Below are positions 51,381 through 59,975 of a DNA stretch of 64,000 bases, piece after piece. Every line of letters begins with the position of its first letter. Within the stretch, counting starts at the first letter, position 1. The translations under genes were made by a program, and so were the position numbers. Source of the DNA: Gemmobacter lanyuensis (GTDB taxonomy: Bacteria; Pseudomonadota; Alphaproteobacteria; Rhodobacterales; Rhodobacteraceae); the NCBI RefSeq assembly GCF_014652355.1, contig NZ_BMYQ01000001.1, forward strand, positions 246,180-310,179. Direction: 5' to 3'. A model generated the notes under the pieces. It was not told the DNA's origin. It saw only the letters and a program-made list of their open reading frames with translations, and did no database searches.

Positions 51381-51506
51381 ATGCTGAAGGAAGTGAAAGC
51401 CGTCTTCGCCCATTCGTCCGCCACCATGCTGGAGGATGCGATCGGCACAGTCGCCATCTTCGCCCTGCTTTTCGTCGGGCTACACGTGCTGCCCAATTTC
51501 GTCTGA
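51381..51506 (+). CDS. 41-residue LexA-controlled single-helix membrane peptide
   Basis: An ATG at 51381 follows a strong GGAGG (AGAGGAGGTCTCG). The peptide begins MLKEVKAVFAHSSATMLED and continues into one membrane helix of about 20 residues ending at GLHVLPNFV. A basic, helical N terminus plus one helix is the design of small SOS-induced division inhibitors such as Caulobacter SidA, but I see no clear sequence match. The upstream LexA box and downstream strong terminator make it a single-gene SOS unit. It is too short for most gene finders. Confidence 0.82.
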   Translation: MLKEVKAVFAHSSATMLEDAIGTVAIFALLFVGLHVLPNFV

Positions 51507-51594
51507 GTTTCTGCCTGCGGTCTGCCTCAGGGCGCATCGTCCCCAAGCGATGCCGCGTCACTGTCCCGACGCTTGCCTGCCAGACACGCGACTT

Positions 51595-51624
51595 CCGCCG
51601 CGGCGTGCCGCGGCGGTTTTTTTT
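51595..51624 (+). terminator. Strong terminator after the SOS peptide gene
   Basis: CCGCCGCGG (51595-51603) and CCGCGGCGG (51608-51616) form a perfect 9-bp stem with a 4-nt loop, followed by eight T. It ends just before the stop of the convergent IscU-like gene at 51632. Confidence 0.95.
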
Positions 51625-54117: not shown

Positions 54118-56130
54118 ATGAAGCGACTTCTCACCTCAACCACTGCGCTGGCGGTCGCGCTCTCGCCGATGAATGCGGCGATGCTGCGCGCCGAGACGGT
54201 GATCGATGTGGACGGGCAGACGGTGATCTGTCTGCAGGATCGGAAGGCAACTTGCCCCGAGGGCTCTGTCTGCACCGTTGCCGTGAACCCCAAGAACTGC
54301 GAACGCAATGCCCGACGCGATCTGGGCGCGGCTGCCCCCGTGGAAGAGGCCGCACCTGTGGAAGACGGGGTGGCTGTGCCGGCAGACGACCCTGCACAGG
54401 CCGAGGCCGAGCTGAAAGCCGCTGAGGAGGCTGAGGCGAAGGCCAAGGCTGAGGCAGAGGCGAAAGCTGCGGAAGACGCAGCCAAGGCTGAGGCTGCGGC
54501 GAAGGCTGCCGAAGAGGCGGAGCAGGCTGAAGCCGAGGCGAAAGCTGCGGCCGATGCCCAAGCGGCCGAAGAGGCGGCCAAAGCCAAGGCGGCCGCAGAT
54601 GCCGCAGCGGCGCAAGCCGCAGAAGAGGCCGCCAAAGCCGAGGCCAAAGCCGCCGAAAAGGCCGCCAAAGCCGAAGAGAAAGCCGCCCGCGATGCGGCAA
54701 AGGCAGAAGCAAAGGCTGCGAGGGAAGCCGCCCGCGCCGCTGAAGCTGCCGCTGCCGAACAGGCCGCTAAAGACCCGGCTGCAACCGAACAGGCGCCCGA
54801 CGTGGGGGACCCGCTCGTTGTTCCGGAGCTGGGCGAGGTGGTGCTGGCCCCGGCTGAGGGTGAGGACATGCCCGCGGCCGAGGCGGTGGATGCGCTGACC
54901 AATATCCTGACCGAGGAAGCCTCGCCCAAGAAAAAGGCCACCTTGGGCACGCGCCCTGAAGGCAAACCCGTCCCGGGCACCGAGGCTGCCCCTGAAACCG
55001 CCGCGCAGGCCGAAGAGCCCGCCCCGAAGCCGCGCAAACCGCGCACCAAACCCGCCGCTGCTGCTGCACCGCATGAGGACCCGGCACCGGGCACGCGCGT
55101 TACCGAAACCACGGTGACCGAGGCAGATACCCGCGCCTCATCTGAGGAATTCAAGACCGAAGCCCTGACCCCGGCCGCCAAATCCGCTGCGACGGCAGAT
55201 GCCAAGTCTGCCACCGAAGCCAAGAAGAAGGACGGTCTGTCGGATCTCGAAAAGGCGGGTCTTGTGGTGCTTGGGGCGCTTGTTGTCGGCTCGCTGCTCA
55301 AGAACGGCGACCGTGTCGTATCCAACACCGGGGACCGCGTGGTCGTGCAGCAGGACAATGGCCAATATGTCGTGCTCAAGGATGATGACACGCTGCTGCG
55401 CCAGCCCGGTAATACCGTCCGGACAGAAACCTTTGCTGATGGTTCGGTCCGCACAATCGTGAGCCGCCCGGACGGCAGCCAGATCGTCACCATCCGCGAT
55501 GCGGCCGGCCGTGTCTTGCAACGCCTGCGCGTGGGCCCCGATGGTCGGCAGACGGTTCTGATCGACGACCTGTCGGACCAGATTCAGGAGGTCGATGTGA
55601 CCACCCTGCCGCCGCCGCGAGAAAACCTGACCATCTCGCCGCGCGCCGAGGATGCCGAACTGCGCGCCGGGCTGTTGCGCGCCCAGGCCGAAGAAGCGGG
55701 TCGCGCCTTCAGCCTGTCGCAGATCCGCGACTATCCGCAGGTGCGCGCATTGGCACCCACGGTGGATGTAGACAGCATCACCTTCGCCACAGGCTCGGCC
55801 GCGATCCGTTCGACCGAGGCGGCGAAACTGTCCGAGCTTGGCCGCTTCATGGCGCAGATGATCCGCCGCAACCCCGATGAGATGTTCCTGATCGAAGGCC
55901 ATACCGATGCCGTGGGCAGCGGGGCCTATAACCTTGCGCTGTCGGACCGCAGGGCCGAAAGCGTGGCGCTGGCGCTGACGGAATATTTCGACGTGCCGCC
56001 GGAAAACATGGTGGTGCAAGGCTATGGCGAAACCGAGCTGCGCGTGCCGACCGCGGGCGATGAGCCGCGCAACCGCCGCGCGGTGGTCCGCATGATCTCG
56101 CCCCTGATGCAGCAGCTGGCGGGGCGCTGA
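54118..56130 (+). CDS. OmpA-family protein with long Ala/Glu/Lys helical stalk
   Basis: This 670-residue protein has a signal peptide (LTSTTALAVALSPMNAAMLRA) and a short Cys-containing domain (VICLQDRKATCPEG). About 120 residues of repeated A-E-A-K-A-A-type sequence follow (residues about 90-220), predicted as a long charged helix. A Pro/Ala-rich linker and one hydrophobic segment (LEKAGLVVLGALVVGSLL) come next. The C-terminal OmpA domain (SITFATGSAAIRSTEAAKL, LIEGHTDAVGSGAYNLALSD, NRRAVVRM) should bind peptidoglycan. Rhodobacterales often carry one such OmpA/stalk protein; it may span envelope layers. It has its own promoter. Confidence 0.85.
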   Translation: MKRLLTSTTALAVALSPMNAAMLRAETVIDVDGQTVICLQDRKATCPEGSVCTVAVNPKNCERNARRDLGAAAPVEEAAPVEDGVAVPADDPAQAEAELKAAEEAEAKAKAEAEAKAAEDAAKAEAAAKAAEEAEQAEAEAKAAADAQAAEEAAKAKAAADAAAAQAAEEAAKAEAKAAEKAAKAEEKAARDAAKAEAKAAREAARAAEAAAAEQAAKDPAATEQAPDVGDPLVVPELGEVVLAPAEGEDMPAAEAVDALTNILTEEASPKKKATLGTRPEGKPVPGTEAAPETAAQAEEPAPKPRKPRTKPAAAAAPHEDPAPGTRVTETTVTEADTRASSEEFKTEALTPAAKSAATADAKSATEAKKKDGLSDLEKAGLVVLGALVVGSLLKNGDRVVSNTGDRVVVQQDNGQYVVLKDDDTLLRQPGNTVRTETFADGSVRTIVSRPDGSQIVTIRDAAGRVLQRLRVGPDGRQTVLIDDLSDQIQEVDVTTLPPPRENLTISPRAEDAELRAGLLRAQAEEAGRAFSLSQIRDYPQVRALAPTVDVDSITFATGSAAIRSTEAAKLSELGRFMAQMIRRNPDEMFLIEGHTDAVGSGAYNLALSDRRAESVALALTEYFDVPPENMVVQGYGETELRVPTAGDEPRNRRAVVRMISPLMQQLAGR

Positions 56131-56164: not shown

Positions 56165-56178
56165 TTGACGCAAATCAA
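56165..56178 (+). promoter_or_regulatory. FNR/FnrL-type box
   Basis: TTGACGCAAATCAA matches the FNR consensus TTGAT-N4-ATCAA with one mismatch. A class II site here would place transcription start near 56213, and CATTCT (56201-56206) sits at the right place for a -10. The transcript would begin exactly at the first hairpin of the RNA candidate at 56213-56304. Confidence 0.6.
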
Positions 56179-56212
56179 GGCCGAGGGGCGCCGGGGCGGG
56201 CATTCTTTGGGG

Positions 56213-56304
56213 GTGACACGTTCTCCCTGTTCCGTGTCATCCCGTCGCATGCGCGACGGCTCCCTCCGCGCCGCCGGACCTCCCTCCGGCGGCGTCATCT
56301 TTTT
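56213..56304 (+). ncRNA. Candidate small RNA with three stem-loops and CUCCC motifs
   Basis: Three consecutive stems are visible. The first is TGACACG/CGTGTCA (56214-56220 with 56233-56239). The second is CCGTCGC/GCGACGG (56242-56248 with 56253-56259). The third is CGCCGCCGGA/TCCGGCGGCG (56269-56278 with 56285-56294), followed by TCATCTTTTT, an intrinsic terminator. CTCCC appears in loop 1 (56223-56227), CTCCCTCC in the single-stranded linker (56260-56267) and CCTCCC in loop 3 (56279-56284). Exposed CUCCC motifs are the mark of anti-Shine-Dalgarno RNAs (CcsR/cuckoo type) in Rhodobacter. Alternatively this is only the OmpA-family gene terminator or an attenuator for xdhC. Confidence 0.5.
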
Positions 56305-56407
56305 CCATCTCCTCGCGGGAATTCTTGAGTTTTTCCGCCGACATGCCACTTTGGTCGCGTGGCGCACCGGGCGGTGCCTTGCCATGCTGAAGCGCGGGAG
56401 GCAGCAG

Positions 56408-57418
56408 ATGCAGGACGGAACCGACAGCGGCGCCTTGCGCCATGACCAGATCCCCGAAATTGCGCTGGCCTGGCATCGCGCCGGGCGCGGGGCGGTGCTG
56501 GCCACCGTCGTCGAAACCTGGGGGTCGGCCCCGCGCCAACCGGGCAGCCAACTTGTGATTGATGCCTCGGGCGCCATCATGGGGTCGGTTTCGGGTGGCT
56601 GTGTCGAAGGGGCGGTCATTACCGAGGCGCTGGAGGCGTTGGAAGACGGGCGCTCGCGCGTTCTGACCTTCGGGGTCAGCGATGAAACGGCTTTTGCCGT
56701 GGGGCTGGCCTGCGGCGGCACGATCCGGGTGTTGGTGGAGCCGGTGGGCATTGGCCTGACCGAAGACCTCTTGGCCGAACTTGTCGCCGCCCGTGCTGCG
56801 CGACAGCCCCGGGTCTATGCCGTGCATCTGGGCCGGTGGGAACGGCGCCTTGTTGGCCTTGCATATGATCCGCTGACCGAGGCGGCTGCAGTGCGGCTGC
56901 GGTCTGACCGATCGGGATTGGAGGAGGGCGACTGGTTTCTCGCCGTTCATAACCCCGGCTTGCGGATGGTCATCGTGGGCGCCGTGCATATCGCGCAGGC
57001 GCTGGCGCCCATGGCGCGGGCCTGCGGCTATGAGGTGACGCTGATCGACCCGCGCGAAACCTTTGGGGCCGCGGCGCGCTTTCCGGGGGAACGGATCTTG
57101 GACGAATGGCCCGATGCCGCATTGGCATCCCTGGGCCCCGATGCGCGGACCGCGGTCGTCACGCTGACCCATGACACCAAGCTCGATGATCCGGCGATCC
57201 GCGCGGCGCTGGCGTCGGATGTCTTTTACCTGGGATGCCTCGGGTCCACGCGCACCCATGCCAAGCGATTGGATCGGCTGCGCGCGGCCGGGGTGCCGGA
57301 CGCACAGCTTGCGCGCATCCATGCGCCCGTCGGGCTCGATATCGGTGCGAAAACCCCGGCCGAGATTGCGGTCTCGGTGCTGGCGCAGATCACCCAGGTT
57401 CTGAGGCAGGGCGCATGA
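56408..57418 (+). CDS. XdhC/CoxI-family molybdoenzyme maturation protein
   Basis: This 336-residue protein has the XdhC_CoxI N-domain (GRGAVLATVVETWGSAPRQP, GSVSGGCVEGAVITEAL) and the XdhC Rossmann C-domain (MVIVGAVHIAQALAPMARAC, then VTLIDPRETFG and FYLGCLGSTRTHAKR). XdhC proteins bind and sulfurate molybdenum cofactor for xanthine-dehydrogenase-type enzymes. I chose the ATG at 56408 with GGAGG just upstream; the frame is open further back but runs through the hairpin array. No molybdoenzyme structural gene is in the window. Its stop overlaps the next start (ATGA). Confidence 0.88.
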   Translation: MQDGTDSGALRHDQIPEIALAWHRAGRGAVLATVVETWGSAPRQPGSQLVIDASGAIMGSVSGGCVEGAVITEALEALEDGRSRVLTFGVSDETAFAVGLACGGTIRVLVEPVGIGLTEDLLAELVAARAARQPRVYAVHLGRWERRLVGLAYDPLTEAAAVRLRSDRSGLEEGDWFLAVHNPGLRMVIVGAVHIAQALAPMARACGYEVTLIDPRETFGAAARFPGERILDEWPDAALASLGPDARTAVVTLTHDTKLDDPAIRAALASDVFYLGCLGSTRTHAKRLDRLRAAGVPDAQLARIHAPVGLDIGAKTPAEIAVSVLAQITQVLRQGA

Positions 57419-58450: not shown

Positions 58451-58990
58451 TTATTTCGGCGCGATCATCATCACCATCTGACGCCCTTCGAGCTTGGGCA
58501 TCGATTCAATCTTGCCGGCTTCGGCCACATCGGCCGCCACACGGTTCAGAAGCTCAAGGCCAAGCTCCTGGTGGGCCATTTCACGGCCGCGGAAGCGCAG
58601 GGTGACCTTCACCTTGTCGCCTTCGCCCAGGAATTTATGCACGGCGCGCATCTTCACGTCATAGTCGTGATCATCGGTGCCGGGCCGGAACTTAATTTCC
58701 TTGATCTCGATGATCTTCTGCTTCTTGCGGGCCTCGGCCTCACGCTTCTGCTGTTCATATTTGAACTTGCCGAAGTCCATGATCTTGCAGACCGGCGGCT
58801 CGGCGTTGGGCGAGATCTCGACCAGATCAAGACCGGCCTCTTCCGCCATCGCCATGGCACGAGAGGGGGTCACGATCCCCACGTTTTCGCCGTCGGCGCC
58901 GATCAGGCGGATTTCCGGGGCGCGGATGCGTTCGTTGACACGGGGGCCCGTCTCGCGCTGCGGAGGGGCATTGTGGGGTCTGCGGGCTAT
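58451..58990 (-). CDS. infC: Translation initiation factor IF-3 with a probable AUA start
   Basis: This 179-residue IF-3 begins at ATA (minus strand, 58990), directly after AGAAGGA with an 8-nt spacer. There is no ATG, GTG or TTG start that would keep the conserved [20 protein letters not shown] opening. The N-domain, [20 protein letters not shown] linker and the C-domain with [20 protein letters not shown] are intact. IF-3 is known to use a rare start codon (AUU in Escherichia coli) to repress its own translation, and AUA fits that logic. The gene stands alone, divergent from the Ala-rich protein gene. Confidence 0.95.
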
Positions 58991-59121
58991 GGCCTTGATC
59001 CTTCTGTCCTTGGAACCGAGCGCAAAATACTGGTCCTTGGGCGCCAGTTCAACCAGATTCGCTGGGGCCTTTGGCCGTGGGCGCAAATGCCGCCATCGGC
59101 AATCCTTCGCCCATGCGGCCC

Positions 59122-59138
59122 GGGGAAAATTTTTCCCC
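59122..59138. promoter_or_regulatory. Perfect 17-bp A/T-core palindrome in the infC upstream region
   Basis: GGGGAAAATTTTTCCCC is perfectly symmetric around one central T. It lies about 130 bp upstream of the infC start and 94 bp upstream of the Ala-rich gene. Possible operator; no known regulator is matched. Confidence 0.35.
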
Positions 59139-59231
59139 CCAAGATTGCGGAACACGCCCCTTTCAATCGTGCCGGGGCGATGCCATCTGTCTGCCGACCG
59201 TGACCAGATCACGGCTGGAAGGAGCAAAATC

Positions 59232-59975
59232 ATGAACAGCAAGGTCATTATCGGCGGGGTCGTCATCGCCGCTGCCGCCGCAGGTTACTACTACTTCGGT
59301 CAGCCCGCCGAAGAGGTGGCAACCGATGCCGCGCAGACCGCGACCGAGGCCGCCAGCACTGCCTCCACTGCCGCGACTGAGGCCGCCAATCAGGCCTCTG
59401 CCGCGACCGAGGCCGCTGCGGATGCCGCCGCTGGGGCTGCGACCGATGCGACCCAGGCGGCGACGGATGCTGCCAATGCTGCCGCCAGCGCGACCGAAGC
59501 TGCGGGCGAGGCTGCTGCCGCCGCAACCGAAGCGGCCACCGAAGCCGTGACCGAGGCCGCAGGCGCCGCGAGCACGGGGGCCGCCGTTGCTGCCGACGCC
59601 GCCAATGATGCTGCCGCCGCCGCGACCCAGGCCGCCGGCGCCGCTGCAACCGCTGCAACCGAGGCTGCCCAGGCTGCGACCACCGCCGCCGGTGCCGCTG
59701 CCACCGCCGCGACCGACACCGCCACCGATGCGGCCACCGCCGCGACCGAGGCTGCGACCGCCGCCACCACCGCCGCTGCGGGGGCTGTGGCCGATGTGGC
59801 CGCCGTTCTGGACCCGGCGAATTTCGACGCCGCCAAGATCAGCGGTCTGATCGATGCCTCGACGCTGGATGATGCGACCAAGGGCACGCTGAAGGCCGCC
59901 GTGGATGGCGCCGCCAAGAACCCGGCTCTGGTGGAGGCCACCGTTCAGCAGGTCAAGACTGCGCTTGGGATGTGA
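59232..59975 (+). CDS. Alanine-rich amphipathic-repeat protein
   Basis: This 247-residue protein starts with a short anchor or signal ([19 protein letters not shown]). From about residue 27 to 190 it is a low-complexity run of Ala, Thr, Glu, Asp and Gln, with units such as [10 protein letters not shown] and AATDAAN, near 11-residue periodicity. It ends with a more complex domain of about 55 residues ([20 protein letters not shown] to [10 protein letters not shown]). The repeats predict a long amphipathic helix, like LEA or apolipoprotein proteins. AAGGAG precedes the ATG at 59232. I know no function. It is divergent from infC. Confidence 0.75.

Follow-up and report, generated by a model that had tools for sequence, protein, structure and literature searches.

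What lies in the gap between an OmpA-family gene (54118–56130, plus strand; PF00691) and an XdhC-family gene (56408–57418, plus strand; PF13478 and PF02625, with the best NCBIfam model, NF045664, below its cut-off) in the window, the 64,000-nucleotide stretch of DNA analyzed here? A first-pass annotation placed in it a candidate small RNA of about 92 nt controlled by the oxygen regulator FnrL, with an FNR-type box centered 41.5 bp upstream of the first of three stem-loops, a CATTCT sequence in between and a terminator at the end. This layout was confirmed. The element begins 35 nt past the ompA stop codon with the box TTGACGCAAATCAA (56165–56178), a predicted FnrL site, followed by CATTCT (56201–56206) at positions 37 to 42 counted from the box. 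The predicted RNA starts with hairpin 1 (56213–56240; loop UUCUCCCUGUUC) and continues with hairpin 2 (56242–56259; loop AUGC), the single-stranded linker CTCCCTCC (56260–56267) and hairpin 3 (56268–56295; loop CCUCCC), which is the stem of an intrinsic terminator whose T5 run (56300–56304) marks the predicted RNA end. All of these features are on the plus strand, as is xdhC, which begins approximately 100 nt beyond the terminator. Farther downstream, on the minus strand, lies infC, coding for IF-3 (58451–59266; TIGR00168), a neighbor common to many other loci described below.

For the 92-nt segment 56213–56304, the predicted folding energy is −45.1 kcal/mol, versus −24.4 ± 2.7 for shuffled sequences (z = −7.6; none of 200 shuffles as low). 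Between 55800 and 56700 a single terminator-like site was found, namely hairpin 3, with 0.5 expected. CTCCC motifs start at 56223 in loop 1, 56260 in the linker and 56280 in loop 3; hairpin 2 has none. In line with the proposal, all three are predicted to be exposed, with unpaired probabilities of 0.91 (56223–56227), 1.0 and 1.0. The motif occurs 13 times on the plus strand of the window and 12 times on the minus strand, and nowhere else are three copies found within 92 nt.

The conservation of the element was investigated in a survey of 86 XdhC-bearing loci, made up of six strong matches from other members of the genus and 80 further loci. A perfect TTGA-N6-TCAA box with a hairpin element behind it was present at 19 of them (L005 to L008, L010, L019, L020, L033, L034, L042, L047, L056, L062, L063, L065, L075, L076, L084 and L088), a lower bound because eight loci have less than 450 nt of upstream sequence. 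As compared, the sequences are identical within the pairs L019/L007 and L020/L008. Within the genus, 6 of 11 genomes are carriers; a search for the box followed by two CTCCC motifs gave eight matches there, including two at other places (L217 and L218). A plain DNA similarity search of 60 other genomes returned two weak matches (L002 and L003), which were judged by eye to be chance.

In the long form of the element, an outer stem mostly encloses an inner GCGGC-TCTCCC-GCCGC hairpin and is followed by a CTCCC hairpin 2 and a GC-rich terminator with a CTCCC loop. The number of CTCCC motifs varies from two to five among natural variants, and one locus (L010) has ATCCC and no CTCCC. The first-pass annotation had named the conservation of stems and CUCCC loops in relatives as a test of its proposal, and both were found to be conserved. 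In a MAFFT alignment of nine long-form loci (A5), from which the structure itself was drawn, 87.7% of the pair cells hold standard pairs, versus 40 to 50% when the structure is slid along the alignment. The covariation score was 0.207 versus 0.123, a value reached by none of 500 shuffles. Nine pairs have changes in both partners, a number attained by 1 of 500 shuffles (mean, 4.1), but this count is a weak measure, as a slide by one position still gives eight. Pairing and covariation in A5 thus support the predicted fold, short of formal proof. Over 33 collected loci, with RNA ends set by a crude T-run rule, 79 of 96 CTCCC motifs are predicted to be unpaired with a probability above 0.8.

We then looked for the element without recourse to xdhC, using two RNA models and the box-CTCCC pattern. 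A MAFFT alignment of the complete set of 12 forms (A1) was too poor for modeling. The first model, R1, is therefore based on five short-form loci (A2) selected by means of xdhC and the box, and it covers the RNA but not the box. Applied to 149 genomes of the family, R1 returned 16 matches, spread over 14 genomes. All six matches with at least two CTCCC motifs and no CCTCCTCCC have a perfect box 47 to 72 nt upstream, versus none of the remaining 10. Among 87 sources, R1 yielded 62 matches at E values up to 1, 24 of which were inspected singly. Matches devoid of CTCCC, which fit chiefly the terminator hairpin, were left out of the member count.

The box-CTCCC pattern was found in 15 of 295 family genomes, and its reversed control in one; 13 of the 15 look genuine, including the window, and two (L118 and L121) look like chance. 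The second model, R2, built from the nine long-form loci of A5, matched 21 of the 295 genomes, nine of them training genomes. Among the other 12, a perfect box accompanies the match in five, a box with one mismatch in one, and no box in six; R2 thereby added five genomes, four in which the box is perfect and one in which it deviates at one position. The pattern and the R2 additions together indicate a copy in about 18 of the 295 sampled genera. In most of the 295 genomes neither search found a copy, and in 190 genomes of the class R2 gave three matches, none with a box. In 25 named genomes the pattern gave 11 matches in nine genomes (control, one). It recovered five of eight known carriers, missing L075 and the loci of Gemmobacter lutimaris, L019, and Gemmobacter caeni, L020, and revealed one new carrier, Pararhodobacter aggregans (L226); the matches L220, L221, L228, L229 and L230 were judged to be non-members, and no convincing copy was found by this search in C. 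changlensis. The copy in the window was reported by neither R1 nor R2 in whole-genome scans with strict filters, and its local R1 score is 32.4 bits. It is a divergent member of the family, with no CTCCC in hairpin 2 and CA in place of TA at the −10 position. The sensitivity of the survey is thus limited, since the models skip this copy and the pattern misses three of eight known carriers.

A single match to the FNR pattern TTGAYNNNNRTCAA occurs in the 64 kb, namely the box itself, against a mean of 0.17 in shuffled windows. As 17 of 100 shuffled windows contain at least one match, the box by itself is weak evidence. A simple sigma-70 consensus scan detected no promoter at the locus, with 0.1 expected. 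The loci, which were picked without reference to the −10 element, were then aligned on the box. In 27 loci thus aligned, T occupies position 37 in 19 and A occupies position 38 in 24. Over the 33 collected loci, A is found at position 38 in 30 and TA at positions 37 and 38 in 22; the window copy has CA where TA is commonest. The distance between box and −10 element is thus fixed, and perfect boxes in relatives lie equally far from the RNA. A −10 hexamer at positions 37 to 42 places the predicted start near position 49, and the center of the box at −41.5. Class II activation by FNR involves a box near −41.5 and a −10 element at a fixed distance from it. With the start site predicted in this manner, the spacing found here matches that of a class II FNR-activated promoter. 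The distance from the box to the first hairpin is longer at four loci (L056, L075, L084 and L144), and one locus (L031) has the RNA without a box. The genome of the window encodes a Crp/Fnr-type regulator with N-terminal cysteines, the presumed FnrL.

The constant part of the 38 member loci is the RNA, and the genes around it vary. The first-pass annotation had offered as an alternative an oxygen-gated attenuator for the xdhC/molybdopterin pair. In such a case, transcription from the FNR promoter would continue past hairpin 3 as far as xdhC in certain circumstances. The shared strand, the gap of about 100 nt and the presence of xdhC as the next gene at 23 of the 38 loci agree with such a leader, but the last figure is biased because 19 of those loci entered the set by way of xdhC or as the window. 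The association with xdhC is not constant, since this gene comes next at only 4 of the 17 loci found otherwise. There, the same element precedes infC on the opposite strand at five (L116, L125, L127, L128 and L129) and a sulphur-transport gene at three (L123, L139 and L143); at the remaining five it precedes none of the five genes that were looked for. The element is independent of xdhC in this respect. At L034 an OmpA-family gene separates the RNA from xdhC, a crude pattern search found a promoter-like motif before xdhC at 13 of 20 member loci and 18 of 63 non-member loci, and an attenuator would have no use for CTCCC loops; we consider this explanation unlikely. Even less credit goes to the idea that the element only terminates the OmpA-family gene or forms its 3′ region, with a box that is there by chance or for something else. 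Its start 35 nt past the ompA stop is in keeping with that idea, as are the plain terminators without CTCCC that follow ompA at many loci lacking the RNA (e.g., L038, L073 and L074). Nevertheless, box, −10 element and three hairpins recur together at loci with an upstream gene other than ompA (L116, L123, L125, L127, L128 and L129).

Within the flanking sequences covered, infC is present at 19 of the 38 member loci, the window included. We read the member loci as probable descendants of one ancestral locus beside infC. The sulphur-transport gene of L123 belongs to PF04143, and a second FNR-type box lies directly before the sulphur-transport gene in L139 and L143. The promoter-like motif before xdhC mentioned above resembles CCACCTTTTGNCAGTGG and is perhaps the xdhC promoter region; it is found 50 to 90 nt before xdhC at loci with or without the RNA, at about 56345–56365 in the window.

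Judging from these sequence comparisons, 56213–56304 very probably encodes a small regulatory RNA, which is shared by various relatives of Rhodobacter. The main proposal of the first-pass annotation, an RNA of about 92 nt of the FnrL type with anti-Shine-Dalgarno loops, is well supported at this level by the co-occurrence of box, −10 position, hairpins and CTCCC motifs at dozens of loci. We regard it as likely that the gene encodes a trans-acting, FnrL-activated anti-Shine-Dalgarno RNA of this size, conserved in part of the Rhodobacter family.

Is it a known RNA? Neither the window nor 13 related loci contain a match to any Rfam family at or above the respective cut-off. The first-pass annotation had linked the RNA to the CcsR/cuckoo group, and this link stands for the kind of RNA, given the anti-Shine-Dalgarno loops, but not for membership: in the covariance search that it had called for, the CcsR model (RF02791) scored 13.4 bits on 56234–56300, versus an Rfam cut-off of 65.3. 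According to passages of PMC10253847, CcsR1 to CcsR4 of R. sphaeroides lie behind a DUF1127 gene, have an RpoHI/RpoHII promoter and are matured by RNase E. The RNA described here shares with them the anti-Shine-Dalgarno loops and the bacterial family. It differs in having an FNR box and no CCTCCTCCC, and the gene in front of it is of the OmpA family, not DUF1127. CcsR-like loci are found elsewhere in the same genome, the best at 52.2 bits, also under the cut-off: L174 (G000:C6:87388-87466) has two CCTCCTCCC motifs behind a DUF1127 gene (PF06568), and L175 (G000:C9:74800-75269) has nine, with a DUF1127-type frame read by eye; neither has a perfect box.

The layout is that of alpha-r14/NfeR1, cuckoo RNAs of Rhizobiales that are described in parts of PMC7143759 and PMC10746234 as having three hairpins with anti-Shine-Dalgarno motifs in their loops, variable stems and a strong terminator. 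The three hairpins are found in the window RNA. In contrast, the motif of alpha-r14/NfeR1 given in those parts is CCUCCUCCC, in each hairpin loop; it is absent from 56213–56304, which displays the shorter CUCCC or CCUCCC, with the second motif in the linker and none in the loop of hairpin 2. The NfeR1 promoter is described there as a sigma-70 promoter under NtrC and LsrB, whereas the window has an FNR box at −41.5. SmelA075 and SmelA099 of S. meliloti have three and four hairpins, respectively, each with an anti-Shine-Dalgarno loop; their loop motif is also CCUCCUCCC, and the passages of PMC3927594 that describe them do not mention FNR control. Regarding low-oxygen RNAs, a review (PMC8139620) describes PcrZ of R. 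sphaeroides, in the part concerned, as induced at low oxygen in a PrrA- and FnrL-dependent manner, with a PrrA consensus site and an FnrL control that may be indirect; the window RNA would resemble it in being a low-oxygen small RNA. The review also presents FnrS of E. coli, a small RNA dependent on FNR, as a repressor of functions that the cell can do without when oxygen is absent. The window RNA has no Rfam match at cut-off, and its likeness to FnrS is likely convergent. The literature searched, which included few subscription papers, contained no description of an FnrL-controlled anti-Shine-Dalgarno RNA, which does not prove its absence. The element is best interpreted as a novel cuckoo-type RNA that has no match in Rfam.

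A displaced CcsR RNA under heat-shock sigma factors would account for the weak similarities, i.e., the CcsR1 score of 13.4 bits and an R2 match of 35.3 bits to the CcsR-like locus L142. This is a very improbable origin, with a score far under the cut-off, no CCTCCTCCC, no DUF1127 gene and separate CcsR-like loci in the same genome. It is also improbable that the RNA is real but acts mainly by capturing an RNA-binding protein, in the manner of a decoy or sponge, rather than by pairing with mRNAs. Repeated similar loops would be suitable for that purpose, and an RNA-binding protein, CcaF1, aids RNase E in maturing the CcsR RNAs according to passages of PMC10253847; however, NfeR1, which has the same layout, acts by pairing in the account given in part in PMC10746234. 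L142 itself (1501–1622, matched on the minus strand) has three CCTCCC hairpins, a DUF1127-like frame before them as judged by eye, and no FNR box, and it possibly links CcsR and the FNR-box family.

For the FnrL-activated anti-Shine-Dalgarno RNA, we infer transcription, FnrL binding, pairing and repression as follows. When oxygen falls, FnrL would occupy the box at −41.5 and recruit RNA polymerase by class II activation. The transcript would fold into three hairpins and terminate at the third, with loop 1, the linker and loop 3 each displaying a CUCCC-type stretch. Acting as interchangeable seeds, these stretches would base-pair with selected mRNAs at their Shine-Dalgarno regions (AGGGAG, GGGAGG) and prevent ribosomes from entering; NfeR1 represses mRNAs via three redundant anti-Shine-Dalgarno motifs, as reported in passages of PMC10746234. 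The best predicted partner of the loop 1 sequence UCUCCCUG is CAGGGAGA.

Candidate targets were sought as occurrences of ACAGGGAG located 2 to 10 nt before an ATG. There are 15 such places in the genome, versus two for the reversed pattern; 12 precede frames of at least 256 residues, and eight of these 12 were scanned. Three passed curated cut-offs, namely allantoate amidohydrolase and the phenylacetate-breakdown proteins PaaA and PaaN. Below cut-off were a StyA-like monooxygenase, a trimethylamine methyltransferase-like protein and two sugar-binding proteins, and one frame had no match. Predicted duplex energies between loop 1 and the candidate start regions range from −15 to −21 kcal/mol, as expected because the candidates were chosen for the match. 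Among genomes having paaA, ACAGGGAG precedes it in three of five carriers and one of 10 non-carriers, all four in the genus of the window; of the 11 carriers checked in other genera, 10 lack paaA. The candidates would be consistent with an RNA that silences oxygen-dependent breakdown and uptake.

A wider reading is plausible but tentative, and we give it somewhat less than even confidence. The element would represent an FnrL-driven, infC-anchored family of the cuckoo type that was already present in the ancestor of part of the Rhodobacter family and is an alphaproteobacterial counterpart of FnrS. Through two to five interchangeable anti-Shine-Dalgarno seeds, it would, upon oxygen loss, shut down the translation of many mRNAs for transporters and oxygen-dependent catabolism, sharing targets with the stress-induced CcsR RNAs under another signal. 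In the source passages cited above, anti-Shine-Dalgarno cuckoo RNAs respond to stress-related sigma factors in the case of CcsR and to nitrogen regulators in that of NfeR1. One wired to the oxygen sensor would give the FnrL regulon a posttranscriptional arm, in a group of hosts much used for studying the switch between respiration, photosynthesis and denitrification. According to a passage of PMC4263372, 13 FnrL ChIP sites in R. sphaeroides are not located upstream of an annotated gene, and two of these 13 are at small RNAs. RNAs of the present kind could thus explain such orphan sites. Natural variation in the number of CTCCC motifs, from two to five, also offers a ready system to determine how many redundant seeds are needed.

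Elsewhere in the window, another candidate small RNA was noted at 51526–51624 on the plus strand, behind a short membrane-like frame (51381–51507). It consists of hairpins and a T8 terminator, with a fold z score of only −2.1 and 25.1 bits to the mmgR/suhB model (RF00519; cut-off, 41), and it is conserved with 76% identity in L021 (350–554).
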